Origin: Hymenobacter sp. | GTDB lineage: Bacteria > Bacteroidota > Bacteroidia > Cytophagales > Hymenobacteraceae | DNA: 34,744 nt | Assembly (NCBI GenBank): GCA_025354605.1 | Contig: JANXMN010000228.1 | Location: 1-34,744, forward strand | Direction: 5' to 3' | In this document: positions 2,972-26,089 of the stretch, in pieces | Layout of the letters: the number at the start of each line of letters is the position of its first letter | How positions within the stretch are numbered: position 1 is the first letter of the stretch | Translations under genes and position numbers: made by a program | Notes under the pieces: model-generated | Databases searched by the model: none | Told to the model about the DNA's origin: nothing | What the model saw: the letters and a program-made list of their open reading frames with translations, nothing else

Positions 2972-2974
2972 TCT

Positions 2975-3062
2975 GAATTATGAATTATGAGTTATGAGTT
3001 ATGAATTGGCCCCTAGCTGGCTAATCGGAAACTCACAATTCACAATTCATAATTCATAATTC
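2975..3062. repeat. Heptad-repeat palindrome, AATTATG type, between rplU and rpmA
   Basis: The left arm (2975-3008, 34 nt) is made of 7-nt units of the form gaattat/gagttat. The right arm (about 3029-3062) is its imperfect reverse complement. The outer 16 nt (2975-2990 with 3047-3062) pair perfectly. The loop is about 20 nt. The hairpin begins 3 nt after the rplU stop codon and ends 8 nt before the rpmA ATG, so when folded it would abut the rpmA ribosome-binding region. Three relatives occur in this window, at 11442, 20889 and 24997. Confidence 0.85.
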
Positions 3063-3070
3063 AAAAAATT

Positions 3071-3346
3071 ATGGCTCACAAGAAAGGTGTCGGCTCATCC
3101 AACAACGGCCGCGAATCGCATTCGAAACGTCTCGGCGTAAAAATCTTTGGCGGCCAGGCCCTGGTAGCCGGCAACATCATCGTGCGTCAGCGCGGTACCA
3201 AGCACCACCCCGGCGCTAACGTCGGCATGGGCAAGGACCACACCCTGTTCGCCCTCGTTGACGGGGAGGTGCAGTTCCGCAAGGGCCGCAAAGACCGTTC
3301 GGTGGTAACCGTGCTAGCCCGCGAGGTAGTTTCGGTACCGGCTTAA
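3071..3346 (+). CDS. rpmA: 50S ribosomal protein L27
   Basis: A 91-aa L27 starting [20 protein letters not shown], the N-terminus that reaches the peptidyl-transferase centre. It has no cleavable N-terminal extension of the Firmicutes kind. The [20 protein letters not shown] block is the family signature. It is co-transcribed with rplU and followed by a strong intrinsic terminator. Confidence 0.97.
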
Positions 3347-11441: not shown

Positions 11442-11535
11442 GTTGCTGGTTGTTGGTTTCTCGTTGCTGGTTGGGTTCAGCACCTGGAAGCCGCGAAAAC
11501 CGCCAACAAGTAACTAGAAACCAATAGCTAGCAAC
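11442..11535. repeat. Heptad-repeat palindrome, GTTGCTG type
   Basis: The left arm (11442-11475, 34 nt) is five 7-nt units: gttgctg gttgttg gtttctc gttgctg gttggg. The right arm (11503-11535) is its reverse complement with about 6-7 mismatches, and the loop is 27 nt. It fills the 5' leader of the small membrane-protein gene at 11107-11430. Confidence 0.8.
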
Positions 11536-18089: not shown

Positions 18090-18100
18090 GGCAGAACGAC

Positions 18101-18133
18101 AACTCCCCTCCTTTTTTAAGGAGGGGAGTTTTT
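18101..18133 (+). terminator. Intrinsic terminator of prfA, formed by the left end of a repeat element
   Basis: A 13-bp stem aactcccctcctt (18101-18113) with its complement 18118-18130, followed by TTT; with the last two stem bases this makes a run of five T. Confidence 0.7.
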
Positions 18134-18312
18134 GCGAAGCAAAAACGGGGGTGGTAAAGTCGTTGAACGATGCCTGCACGACTGCCGCCCAACCTGCTCA
18201 TCCACTCGTACAATTTTTGCGGCCTGGCGGACGTTCAGGTATCGTTCAACGACTTTACCACCCCAATTTTAGCTGTGCTAAAATATCCCCTCTTTAAAAA
18301 AGGCGGGGAGTT
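18101..18312. mobile_element. MITE-like composite palindromic element
   Basis: A 212-bp element. It opens with aactcccc and closes with ggggagtt. A perfect 22-bp internal inverted repeat pairs 18150-18171 with 18241-18262. Each arm carries further hairpins: 18101-18130 and 18129-18145 on the left, about 18265-18284 and 18286-18308 on the right. The centre (18172-18240) is unique and non-coding. No transposase gene and no clear target-site duplication were seen. It sits between prfA and the beta-helix lipoprotein. Confidence 0.65.
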
Positions 18313-18329
18313 GGCTGTTTACTATTTTT

Positions 18330-19920: not shown

Positions 19921-19968
19921 CACAAACAACAGAAGGGCGGCTCATGAGCCGCCCTTCTGTTGTTTGTG
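19921..19968. terminator. 48-bp perfect palindrome, bidirectional terminator
   Basis: The 24-nt arms 19921-19944 and 19945-19968 are exact reverse complements with no spacer. It lies between convergent genes (the beta-helix lipoprotein and lipA), so it probably ends both transcripts. Confidence 0.8.
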
Positions 19969-19989: not shown

Positions 19990-20883
19990 TTACACCGGCA
20001 CGTTCACGTGGCGCTCGGCGTGGTAGGAGCTGCGCACCAGCGGGCCGCTTTCCACGTACTTCAGGCCGCGGCGCAGGCCCTCTTCCTTGTAGTGGGTAAA
20101 CTGGTCGGGGGTGATGAATTCGGCTACGTCGAGGTGGCGCCGAGTGGGCTGCAGATATTGGCCCAGGGTGAGGATGTCGAGGCCATTGGCCACGAGGTCG
20201 TCCATGGCTTGGTACAGCTCGTCGGGCTTTTCGCCCAGGCCGAGCATGATGCCAGACTTGGTGCGGTGCCCGGCCTGCTTGGTGCGGCGGATTTGCTCCA
20301 GACTGCGGTCGTAGCGGGCCTGGGGGCGCACGAGGCGGTAGAGGCTGCCCACGGTTTCGATGTTGTGCGAAATCACTTCCTGGCCGCCCGAAATCATGAC
20401 GTCCAGCGCGTCCCAGTTGGCTTTTACGTCGGGTATCAGGGTTTCGATGGTAGTAGTAGGCGAAAGCTGCTTGGTGAGCACTACGGTTTCGCGCCATACG
20501 CTGGCCCCGCGGTCTTTCAGCTCGTCGCGGTTCACGGAAGTGATGACGGCGTGCTTCACCTTCATCAGGTGAATGGCCTCGGCTACGCGGCGGGGCTCGT
20601 CGAGGTCGTACTCGGTGGGGCGGCCGGTGGCCACGGCGCAGAACGAGCACGAGCGGGTGCAGATGTTGCCCAGAATCATGAACGTGGCCGTGCCCGCGCC
20701 CCAGCACTCGCCCATGTTGGGGCAGTTGCCGCTCTCGCAGATGGTGTGGAGCTTGTGTTCATCAACCAGCCGGCGCACGGCGGCATATTCTTCGCCCACG
20801 GGCAGCTTCACGCGCAGCCAGTCAGGCTTGCGGGGGCGGGCGGGGGCAGCCGTTTCGGGCTGGATAACCGGCAAATCAATCAT
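19990..20883 (-). CDS. lipA: Lipoyl synthase
   Basis: A 297-aa radical SAM enzyme that inserts two sulfur atoms into protein-bound octanoate to make lipoate, the cofactor of E2 subunits in 2-oxoacid dehydrogenase complexes. Both clusters are visible: auxiliary C49-x4-C54-x5-C60 ([15 protein letters not shown]) and radical SAM C75-x3-C79-x2-C82 ([10 protein letters not shown]). It has the C-terminal HVNVPV tail. The E1 fusion 3 kb away depends on this cofactor. Its leader carries a heptad palindrome and a -7 box at 20952-20959. Confidence 0.97.
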
Positions 20884-20888
20884 AAATC

Positions 20889-21026
20889 GAATTATGAGTT
20901 ATAAATTATGAATTATGAGTTGTTGGCATTGTATGAGGTGCCCAGGCACAACAAAATTACAAACGAAGTGCTTCGACACCGGCTCCGGGCGCAAACTCAT
21001 AATTCATAATTCAAAACTCATAATTT
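20889..21026. repeat. Heptad-repeat palindrome, AATTATG type, in the lipA leader
   Basis: The left arm (20889-20922, 34 nt) and right arm (20994-21026) are built of the same gaattat/gagttat-type units as the copy at 2975, and pair with about three mismatches. The loop is about 70 bp and is not repetitive. It fills the gap between lipA and the upstream outer-membrane protein gene. Confidence 0.85.
20952..20959 (-). promoter_or_regulatory. Putative lipA -7 element inside the palindrome loop
   Basis: On the minus strand it reads TAATTTTG, a perfect TAnnTTTG, inside the loop of the heptad palindrome. Transcription from here would include only the arm nearest lipA. Confidence 0.45.
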
Positions 21027-23887: not shown

Positions 23888-23951
23888 ACGTAAATAACCA
23901 TAAATCGAACGCGCGAAAACCGCGCCAACCTGCCGGAGCAGGGCCCGGAAG

Positions 23952-24030
23952 GGCAGGAGCGTAACCGCAGAAAGCACGTCATGCTAAGCGCAGTGAAGTA
24001 TGACGTGCTTTCTGCGGTTACGCTCTTGCC
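23952..24030. repeat. Long inverted repeat between the E1 fusion and the lipoprotein gene
   Basis: The 26-nt arms 23957-23982 and 24000-24025 are perfect reverse complements, extendable to about 31 nt with one mismatch. The loop is 17 nt (23983-23999) and, with the arm ends, reads gtcatgctaagcgcagtgaa, resembling gtcatgctgagc-type dispersed repeats I associate with this group of bacteria. No T-run follows, so it is not an obvious terminator. Confidence 0.8.
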
Positions 24031-24034
24031 TTAC

Positions 24035-26089
24035 CTAGTAGCTGCGCAAGGCCTGCACCTGCTCGCGCAGGCGCTGCTGGGGCAGGAAGGCGGCTTCCAG
24101 CGGTGGGGCAAACGGGATAGCGGTATCGAGCGAAGCCACGCGGCGCACGGGCGCGTCGAGGTGCTCGAAGCAGTGCTCGCCAATCCAGGCCGCGATTTCG
24201 CCACCGATGCCGCCGGTCATCGTGTCTTCATGCAGGATGATGACGCGGCCGTTTTTCGCCACGGTGCGCCGCACGGCTTCCTCGTCCCAGGGCAGCAGGG
24301 TGCGCAGGTCCAGGATGTCGGCCGACACGCCCAGGTCCTGGCATACCTGCAAGGCCCAGCGCACGCCCATGCCGTAGGTGATGATGCTCAGCTCGTCGCC
24401 CTCGGCGGCCAGCGCGGCCTGCCCGATGGGCGTGGTGTAGTAGGCCTCGGGCACCGGGCCGCTGAGGCTGCGGTAGAGCATCTTGTGCTCGAAATACAGC
24501 ACCGGGTTGGGGTCTTCGAAGGCGGCGCAGAGCAGGCCCTTGGCATCGTGCGGGTTGCTGGGGTACACCACTTTCAGGCCGGGCACGTGGGTGAACCAGG
24601 CCTCGTTGCTCTGGCTGTGGAAAGGACCAGCCGCCGAACCCGCGCCGGTGGGCATGCGCACCACCACGTCGGCGTTCTGGCCCCAGCGGTAGTGGCTCTT
24701 GGCCAGGTTGTTCACAATCTGGTTGAAGCCGCAGGTGACGAAGTCGGCAAACTGCATTTCCACCATGGCCTTCTTGCGCTTGATGCTCAGACCCAGCCCG
24801 ATGCCCACGATGGCCGACTCGCACAGTGGCGTGTTGCGCACCCGGGCCTTGCCGAATTCGGCCACACAGCCCTCCGTTATTTTGAAGACTCCGCCGTAGT
24901 CGGCAATGTCCTGGCCCATGAGCACCAGCTCGGGGTAGCGCTCCATGCTCTGCTTCAGCCCTTCTTGTATAGCATCAATGAAACGGATTTCTCTGGTTGG
25001 TGCTTGGTTGTTGGTGCTTGGTGCTTGGTTTTTGGGGCCGTCCGAACCAAGCACCAAGCTCTGAGCACCAAGTACCAATGGCGCGTACATGTCCGCGATT
25101 TCCTCGGCGATATCGGCCGTGGGCATGGGCGCGGCGTCGGCTTCCTGTAGGCCGGCTTCGATGGCGGCCTTGATTTTCTCGCGGATGCCGTGCTTGGCCG
25201 TTTCGGTAAGGATGCCCTCGGCCAGCAGCCACTTCTCGTAGTTCTCGACCGGGTCTTTGGCGGCCCATTCCTCCATCAGGCTCTGGGGCACGTACTTGGT
25301 GCCGCTGGCCTCCTCGTGGCCGCGCATCCGAAAGGTGAGGGCCTCGACCAGCACCGGGCGCGGGTTTTCGCGCATGTCCTCGGCCAGCCGCTTGATAGTG
25401 GTGTACACCTCCAGAATGTTGTTGCCATCGACCTGCACGGCCTCCATGCCGTAGGCCGGGCCTTTGTCGACGAACGACTTGAAGCGGAACTGCTCGTTGC
25501 TGGGCGTGCTCAGGCCGTAGCCGTTGTTTTCGATGATAAAGATGACCGGCAGCTGCCACACGGCGGCCACGTTCAGGGCCTCGTGGAAGTCGCCTTCCGA
25601 AGCACCGCCGTCGCCGCTGTAGGTCACGGTCACCTTGGGCTTTTTATCGAGCAAATCGGCCAGGGCGATGCCGCCGGCCACGGCCAGCTGTGGGCCGAGG
25701 TGCGAAATCATGCCCACGATGTGGTACTCGTTGGTGCCGAAGTGGAAGCTGCGGTCGCGGCCCTTGGTGAAGCCCAGGCGCTTGCCCTGCCACTGCGCAA
25801 ATAGGCGGCCCAGCGGCACCTCGCGACCTGTGAATACGCCCAGGTTGCGGTGCAGTGGCAGAATGTACTCATCGGCGTCCAGCGCCAGGGTGCTGCCCAC
25901 CGAGATGGCCTCCTGGCCGATGCCCGAAAACCACTTGCTCACCTTGCCCTGGCGCAGCAGAATCAGCATTTTCTCCTCAATCAGCCGGGGCCGCAGCAGG
26001 TGCTGGTAGAGGTGCAGGAGGGTTTCATTGGGAAGGTCCTGCCGGTCGAAGGCGAGCGCCGTAGCAGTAGTGGAGGTGGTGGGAGTCAT
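24035..26089 (-). CDS. 2-oxoacid dehydrogenase E1, fused alpha and beta subunits
   Basis: A 684-aa thiamine-diphosphate enzyme that decarboxylates a 2-oxoacid (branched-chain oxoacid or pyruvate) and passes the acyl group to lipoylated E2. The alpha half (about 1-335) has the ThDP motif GDG(159-161)...NN(188-189) and the HRNLGVF and RMRGHEEASGT loops. The beta half (about 366-684) starts REIRFIDAIQEGLKQSMERY and holds MGQDIADYGGVFK, NTPLCESAIVGIGLG and the HEDTMTGGIGGE end. Alpha/beta fusions of this kind are usual in Bacteroidota. Odd: the linker (338-365, with LVLGAQSLVLG and NQAPSTNNQAPT) is encoded by a palindromic repeat. A TACCTTTG -7 box precedes it. Confidence 0.93.
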   Translation of the reverse strand: MTPTTSTTATALAFDRQDLPNETLLHLYQHLLRPRLIEEKMLILLRQGKVSKWFSGIGQEAISVGSTLALDADEYILPLHRNLGVFTGREVPLGRLFAQWQGKRLGFTKGRDRSFHFGTNEYHIVGMISHLGPQLAVAGGIALADLLDKKPKVTVTYSGDGGASEGDFHEALNVAAVWQLPVIFIIENNGYGLSTPSNEQFRFKSFVDKGPAYGMEAVQVDGNNILEVYTTIKRLAEDMRENPRPVLVEALTFRMRGHEEASGTKYVPQSLMEEWAAKDPVENYEKWLLAEGILTETAKHGIREKIKAAIEAGLQEADAAPMPTADIAEEIADMYAPLVLGAQSLVLGSDGPKNQAPSTNNQAPTREIRFIDAIQEGLKQSMERYPELVLMGQDIADYGGVFKITEGCVAEFGKARVRNTPLCESAIVGIGLGLSIKRKKAMVEMQFADFVTCGFNQIVNNLAKSHYRWGQNADVVVRMPTGAGSAAGPFHSQSNEAWFTHVPGLKVVYPSNPHDAKGLLCAAFEDPNPVLYFEHKMLYRSLSGPVPEAYYTTPIGQAALAAEGDELSIITYGMGVRWALQVCQDLGVSADILDLRTLLPWDEEAVRRTVAKNGRVIILHEDTMTGGIGGEIAAWIGEHCFEHLDAPVRRVASLDTAIPFAPPLEAAFLPQQRLREQVQALRSY
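24997..25078. repeat. Heptad-repeat palindrome, TTGGTGC type, inside the E1 linker
   Basis: The left arm (24997-25030, 34 nt) is made of ttggtgc-type 7-nt units. The right arm (25045-25078, 34 nt) is its reverse complement, with a perfect 15-bp core (25016-25030 with 25045-25059) and several mismatches beyond it. The loop is 14 nt. It is read through in frame as residues 338-365 of the fused E1 and contains no stop codon. Confidence 0.85.

Follow-up and report, generated by a model that had tools for sequence, protein, structure and literature searches.

We favour, with moderate confidence, the reading that the palindrome between the ribosomal-protein genes rplU and rpmA of a Hymenobacter sp. 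represents a copy of a dispersed non-coding repeat, an inverted pair of period-7 arms of about 32 nt, which likely spreads into tight gene junctions by the copying of its arms and not of the intervening DNA. The palindrome lies in a stretch of 34,744 nucleotides, the whole of which is here called the window. In the sampled DNA, the class itself, its period, its C-poor 5' arm, the sharing of arms around unrelated loops and the snug fit between stop and start codons are established, and so are the lineage-specific abundance of units and the occurrence of different unit types at one orthologous site. New copies may arise by REP-like, non-autonomous copying, with the arm pair as the part that appears to be copied. 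Junction sites would be kept because a hairpin is harmless there, or because it is of benefit as an mRNA fold past the stop codon of the upstream gene, a region in which additional stop codons in several frames often seem to come from the units; such an mRNA role is a candidate suggested by sequence. Differences at the same site would stem from repeated replacement of whole junctions rather than from point mutation.

Hairpins of the window and the heptad class

All four palindromes named by the first-pass annotation were recovered by inverted-repeat and tandem-repeat scans, with arms of 32–34 nt and a 7-nt period, the first of them between rplU and rpmA (Table 1). A hairpin scan found seven hairpins in the window, four of them heptad hairpins, and none in 100 dinucleotide shuffles. 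The annotation had put hairpin 1 at 8 nt from rpmA; the proximity stands, but with the last base of the right arm at 3063 and the rpmA start at 3071, 7 nt lie between them. As RNA, the region 2972–3070 folds with –36.6 kcal/mol (z –8.58). The stem is A+T-rich, and a T run behind it is absent from the sequence as read. Rfam gave no match in the window at the gathering score. Hairpin 4 is intragenic and lies in frame between the E1_dh and Transket_pyr domains of the E1-type protein. The assembly of origin (G000; 5.50 Mb, 601 contigs, 90% complete) encodes an L21 that is 97% identical to L21 of H. sp. IS2118 and H. lapidarius.

Table 1 Hairpins, neighbouring genes and other inverted repeats of the window
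Feature	Position	Strand	Description
rplU, ribosomal protein L21	2666..2971	+	PF00829, TIGR00061
Hairpin 1, left arm	2974..3007		34 nt; AATTATG/AGTTATG units; starts 2 nt past the rplU stop codon
Hairpin 1, loop	3008..3029		22 nt
Hairpin 1, right arm	3030..3063		34 nt; arms 85% complementary
rpmA, ribosomal protein L27	3071..3346	+	PF01016, TIGR00062
Hairpin 2, left arm	11442..11474		33 nt; GTTGCTG units
Hairpin 2, loop	11475..11502		28 nt
Hairpin 2, right arm	11503..11535		33 nt; arms 82% complementary
Imperfect inverted repeat	18100..18313		82-nt arms; outer ends CAACTCCCCTCC; separate repeat family
Perfect palindrome	19921..19968		25-nt arms that overlap; flanked by a gene end (19913) and by the end of lipA (19990); placed like a terminator
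lipA, lipoyl synthase	19990..20883	-	PF04055, TIGR00510; downstream of hairpin 3
Hairpin 3, arm	20890..20921		32 nt; AATTATG type; 6 nt before the start codon of lipA
Hairpin 3, loop	20922..20993		72 nt; contains TAATTTTG on the lipA strand
Hairpin 3, other arm	20994..21025		32 nt; 94% complementary; stop codon of the upstream gene at a distance of 3 nt
Inverted repeat	23947..24035		arms of 39 nt with 90% complementarity; no 7-nt period; immediately precedes the end of the E1-type gene
E1 alpha/beta-type dehydrogenase gene	24035..26089	-	684 aa; E1_dh (35-325) and Transket_pyr (368-540) domains
Hairpin 4, arm	24997..25030		34 nt; TTGGTGC type; in-frame linker
Hairpin 4, loop			14 nt
Hairpin 4, other arm	25045..25078		34 nt; arms 82% complementary

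The hairpin scan covered 2.28 Mb, comprising parts of the window's own genome and of G005, G009, G011, G012, G014 and G093, together with loci of up to 20 kb from other species. Among the 359 hairpins obtained, 55 had arms with a period of 7 and eight had a period of 8, and each other period (2–12) accounted for at most three. Thirty-four consensus units were found among the 55 heptad hairpins, one of which (G012:226707, GC-rich) probably lies outside the class. Arm lengths had quartiles of 29, 32 and 35 nt, a range of 22–76 and a mode of 32 (11 of 55), so that 34 nt is near the peak without being the rule. The proposal of a shared period and arm size with changing unit sequence was thus borne out, including a length peak close to 34 nt, whereas an arm size fixed at that value was not. 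The 61 hairpins of the GTCATG family had longer arms than the heptads, and the arm lengths of the other 235 hairpins were spread more widely. Period-8 hairpins, for instance L010:14915-15029, L010:16053-16138 and G014:C1:6112-6203, matched the heptads approximately in arm length.

The arms are polar. G exceeded C in the 5' arm of 51 of the 55 heptads (binomial p 2e-11), which are not all independent for this count because 12 of them are rplU–rpmA orthologues, and in all eight octads. The corresponding counts of G>C versus C>G were 112:114 (nine ties) for unclassified hairpins and 21:37 (three ties) for the GTCATG family. Low-GC heptad tracts had an inverted partner within 260 nt in 89 of 100 cases (52 clear, 37 weak, 11 none); by the weak criterion, control 33-mers had one in 5 of about 300. 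Units without palindromes, which by the annotation would have counted against its proposal, were therefore the exception. Only two inverted tract pairs were listed at distances of 260–5000 nt, both in G009 and both at 4.3–4.4 kb. With stricter tract criteria, 492 kb yielded a single inverted pair; the hairpin scan later took the place of that search. In the rplU–rpmA gaps of other bacteria (57 loci, L024–L080), which were mostly short, a stricter form of the scan detected no hairpin with a lag score of at least 0.55.

Gene junctions and the rplU–rpmA site

Heptad hairpins span the entire gene gap, with a median of 3 nt to the stop codon and 8 nt to the start codon, the latter being approximate because gene borders were taken from a simple codon-usage gene finder. 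The two flanks summed to at most 30 nt in 47 of 58 heptad and octad hairpins, compared with 6 of 61 GTCATG and 52 of 206 other hairpins, and in 36 of 46 when the rplU–rpmA orthologues were left out. Flanks were not wider with loops above 40 nt (medians 10 versus 13). Four of the 55 heptads are intragenic, and three of these share one E1 site. Stop codons were more frequent than in column-permuted controls in both heptad arms (per 100 nt, 11.5 versus 8.7 in 5' arms and 8.1 versus 4.3 in 3' arms; 54 hairpins). In octads they were enriched in 5' arms (18.1 versus 10.3) and depleted in 3' arms (0.4 versus 3.0). A stop codon is held by 24 of the 34 distinct units (permuted mean 18.7).

Such a position could also mark a selected RNA element: the junctions would need a hairpin for 3'-end protection, processing or insulation, and the arms would drift or be replaced while pairing is kept. 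The close approach to the stop codon and the excess of stop codons in both heptad arms agree with this explanation, and all 33 automatically typed rplU–rpmA gaps fold with z < –2. Divergent gaps are avoided as well (2 of 59 versus 320 of 1456 gaps of at least 60 nt), but GTCATG hairpins (3 of 61) and other hairpins (16 of 224) avoid them likewise, so that the avoidance is not heptad-specific. Against selection speak the copy that lies in frame within a protein gene, the many relatives in which the same sites carry no hairpin, and the degenerate rplU–rpmA gaps, of which 8 of 12 miss z < –2. Moreover, selection at single sites leaves unexplained why the same arm occurs at many loci of one genome. 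We thus regard a selected RNA element as rather unlikely to be the main explanation.

The rplU–rpmA site was compared in 47 distinct genomes, drawn from 23 loci and 24 of 30 further loci and thus a subset of the 120 genomes searched; sequence duplicates (G055, G095, G066, G136, G054) and G094, a near copy of G093, were dropped. A heptad-type gap was present in 35 of the 47 (33 by automatic call, two by eye). The remaining 12 (G067, G028, G046, G088, G124, G089, G060, G111, G064, G113, G078 and L004) had a shorter, degenerate gap of 80–83 nt, which looks like a decayed AGCT-type hairpin. Automatic classing had called 14 gaps degenerate, six of them with z < –2, including L010 and L013; by eye, L010 was recoded as AATT, L013 as GTTG and L021 from AATT to GTTG, and the hybrid G086 was kept as AATT. 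With five classes, the degenerate one included, 18 changes were required on a tree of nrdB, rplU and rpmA, and 13 without the degenerate rows. The shuffled mean was 25.2, indicating some clustering of classes on the tree. The sister genomes G030 and G093, 92% identical at this locus, differ in both arms and loop.

These same-site differences might reflect exchange of whole-junction haplotypes between Hymenobacter species by homologous recombination. In agreement with such exchange, the stop codon tracks the arm class (TAA in 18 of 20 AATT/GTTG rows, TAG in 14 of 15 AGCT/AGTG rows), and similar loops were seen by eye in non-sister species, e.g., G050 and G069. Trees of the coding DNA beside the gap gave no recombination signal, with 17 class changes versus 18 for distal coding DNA, although this is a weak test on short sequences. 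Exchange would in any case leave the origin of the unit types and their spread within a genome unexplained, and we think it unlikely as a full account.

Copies within one genome and candidate enzymes

The case for copying comes from hairpins of the window's own genome. Compared between hairpins in their best register, the arms of 25 AATTATG hairpins agreed to 92%, and one exact 25-mer was common to 11 of the 25. Of 50 arms, 19 showed the unit order A-G-A-G, compared with a mean of 3.9 and a maximum of 11 in 2000 shuffles, with the reservation that these hairpins come mostly from sites picked by an AATTATG-initial pattern, which may favour some unit orders. By contrast with the arms, the loops (9–97 nt) resembled shuffled sequence, with a mean local score of 5.22 versus 4.84 over 231 pairs and one pair reaching at least 12. 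Neither the 25-base pattern 3008–3032 of hairpin 1 nor the 28-nt loop of hairpin 2 had a second copy, and hence a loop donor, elsewhere in the own genome at up to three mismatches. As the copies share arm sequence, copying is likely, and the annotation's preference for a common copying mechanism over chance is upheld to that extent. At two own-genome loci (L342 and L343; C308 and C537), AATTATG arms had grown to 46 and 59 nt, compared with the usual 32.

Unit types are also unevenly distributed. Three ARTTATG units in a row gave 242 hits in the own genome, 77 in G002, 94 in G007, 28–52 in three genomes and at most 13 in the other 16 of 22, and the AGCTGTT pattern gave 289 in G009, 156 in G011 and one in the own genome; these hits are overlapping and from both strands, and thus are not copy numbers, while reversed-pattern controls gave 0–10. 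Pattern hits of a unit type hence differ more than 100-fold between species. Across the order, the ARTTATG pattern, counted as hits without scoring of hairpins, was patchy (171 of 390 genomes, 69 of 129 genera).

The annotation had recommended comparing loci in sister strains for presence or absence. At the junction of hairpin 2, the hairpin was absent from all seven relatives read, including G093. A target duplication, as expected for a MITE of a DNA transposon, was not visible by eye at this one empty site, whose flanks are 74–82% identical; G014, not among the seven, has a longer gap there. Inspection by eye revealed heptad tracts upstream of lipA in 13 of 35 genomes; these tracts comprised at least seven unit types, and in some of them one arm was weak. 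The loop contained TAATTTTG or TAAATTTG in 10 of the 13, in G009 and G010 TACCTTTG lay outside the hairpin beside the lipA start codon, and G070 was ambiguous. The TAATTTTG stretch of the hairpin 3 loop also recurs upstream of lipA in relatives that have different arms or lack them. TAnnTTTG serves as a promoter motif in Bacteroidota, and we take TAATTTTG to be a putative promoter motif of this kind. As the core of the lipA loop is kept across arm types, addition of arms around resident DNA fits better than insertion of a ready hairpin. At the E1 linker, inspection of 22 genomes by eye showed an in-frame hairpin in four and a single heptad arm in five; ten had neither and three rows were ambiguous or misaligned. 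At four more sites, the single relative compared per site carried a different palindrome. Between G093 and G094, which are 99.3% identical at the rplU locus, no move was detected, all five heptad hairpins in 200 kb being shared. The pair G009/G011 was too distant for the study of single events (about 82% identity in aligned blocks).

A stricter version of the arm-copying reading, which we put forward tentatively and judge unlikely in its full form, is that the hairpins form a new kind of dispersed element of which the inverted arm pair alone is copied. Arms would be laid at both borders of a gap around resident DNA, such as the promoter-like core at lipA, as if one 32-nt donor arm had served as template for two DNA ends that then rejoined. 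With a period of 7 or 8, every frame would then contain stop codons, and the low C content of the 5' arm would be a polarity mark of the copying enzyme.

The arms could instead have evolved in place without mobility, slippage spreading a changed unit along one arm and foldback template switching copying it to the other. Mixed arms, as in G086 with AGTTATG-like outer and AGTTGTC inner units, and a few variant units matched in both arms (both by eye) would be expected from such a process. Most variant units were, however, unmatched in the partner arm when compared by eye, and arm-to-arm correction was rejected on that account. Since the same long arm sequence moreover occurs at different loci of one genome and an empty site exists for hairpin 2, evolution in place is improbable.

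The layout of the heptad hairpins recalls REPINs, which are inverted pairs with a spacer that form hairpins and occur extragenically in high copy number (PMC3116915). The heptads likewise are inverted pairs of short repeats around a spacer, hairpin-forming, many in number and extragenic apart from the four in genes. They might hence be REPINs mobilised by a RAYT (Y1) transposase whose gene lies at another place in the genome. Of 22 genomes, 16 had PF01797 (Y1/RAYT) matches, 35 in total, and all seven with more than 70 hits of either pattern were among them; RAYT subclass 2.6, mostly from Bacteroidetes, is described as flanked by atypical secondary structures (PMC6006769). Yet of 30 Y1 loci scanned (1.9–3.3 kb each) only one, L106, had a heptad hairpin nearby, and hairpins of other families were found at 21. 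The suggestion of a linked RAYT-type gene was thus not supported, and RAYT linkage was rejected. All six genomes without a Y1 match still carry a heptad-type hairpin at rplU–rpmA (L013 by eye). As a rule the heptads have no neighbouring RAYT, their arms consist of 7-nt units, and the conserved spacer length and whole-unit replication of REPINs are not seen in them, the loops being unconserved in sequence and length in the 25 copies. Movement by RAYT therefore appears doubtful. A reverse transcriptase adding repeats to broken ends in the manner of telomerase would suit 5' arms rich in G, T and A and a repeat length of 7 or 8 nt, both of which resemble templated end addition, but only 4 of 22 genomes had an RVT_1 match, and the three richest in pattern hits (own, its assembly being 90% complete, G009 and G011) had none, so that this reading is largely refuted for RVT_1 enzymes and extremely improbable overall. 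Among the Y1 and RVT_1 matches of the 22 genomes, no moving enzyme was found.

Relation to other repeats

Heptameric STRR repeats are known from cyanobacteria, as the annotation had noted. Head-to-tail 7-nt units in intergenic DNA are common to them and the Hymenobacter hairpins; direct arrays without an inverted partner, as in STRR-like repeats, do not describe the Hymenobacter tracts, most of which have a partner. The annotation had supposed that heptad-like repeats might be known in Bacteroidota, and indeed TAACTGA heptamers are published for Beggiatoaceae, Cyanobacteria and five Bacteroidetes, patchily distributed and near start codons (PMC4679880). That forward TAACTGA repeats hold stop codons in all three frames is likewise already published (PMC4679880), and their complement TCAGTTA resembles the AGTTATG-type units. 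TAACTGA repeats are nevertheless direct, with one inverted set of 170 reported for the main genome (PMC4679880), while Hymenobacter has inverted arms. In the trnL intron of Nostoc, the P6b stem always consists of one of two 7-nt motifs, TDNGATT or NNTGAGT; at one site, Class I has taken the place of Class II in repeated, independent events, the origin of the motifs being given as unknown there (PMC4476775). Both systems are heptad stems that keep a similar structure through unit replacement, but P6b is one RNA locus, whereas Hymenobacter has many gene junctions and many unit types. The GGGAATC heptamers of Xanthomonas occur as inverted pairs, 70 in one genome and 75 in another (PMC4692102); they represent one G-rich unit studied for G-quadruplexes, and the consulted parts of that paper describe no same-site unit change, whereas units swap at one site in Hymenobacter. 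Rickettsia palindromic elements (about 150 bp) often lie inside genes and include an in-frame insertion in a protein gene (review PMC10969869). The in-frame case is common to both, but the Hymenobacter heptads are only rarely intragenic.

The published heptads (PMC4476775, PMC4692102, PMC4679880) thus imply that the Hymenobacter hairpins extend known repeats and are not wholly new. No paper on this inverted heptad class in Bacteroidota, or on Hymenobacter palindromic repeats, was found in a literature search whose coverage excluded most subscription journals. The earlier heptad papers, as far as their consulted sections extend, treat one or few motifs each. Here, one architecture (a 7- or 8-nt period, inverted arms of about 32 nt, a C-poor 5' arm and gap-filling) unites many unit types, which substitute for one another at orthologous sites. 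The class switch of Nostoc P6b would thereby become testable as a general process, and the combination of shared arms with unrelated loops sharply limits the possible modes of copying of such repeats.

A second palindrome family of the type GTCATGCTGAGC...GAAGCATCTC is common in Hymenobacter gene gaps (e.g., L008, L009, L013, L020, G005:C237 and others), with 62 copies seen and arms of 27–59 nt. Unlike those of the heptad hairpins, some of its loops share sequence, namely in 26 of 1326 pairs.
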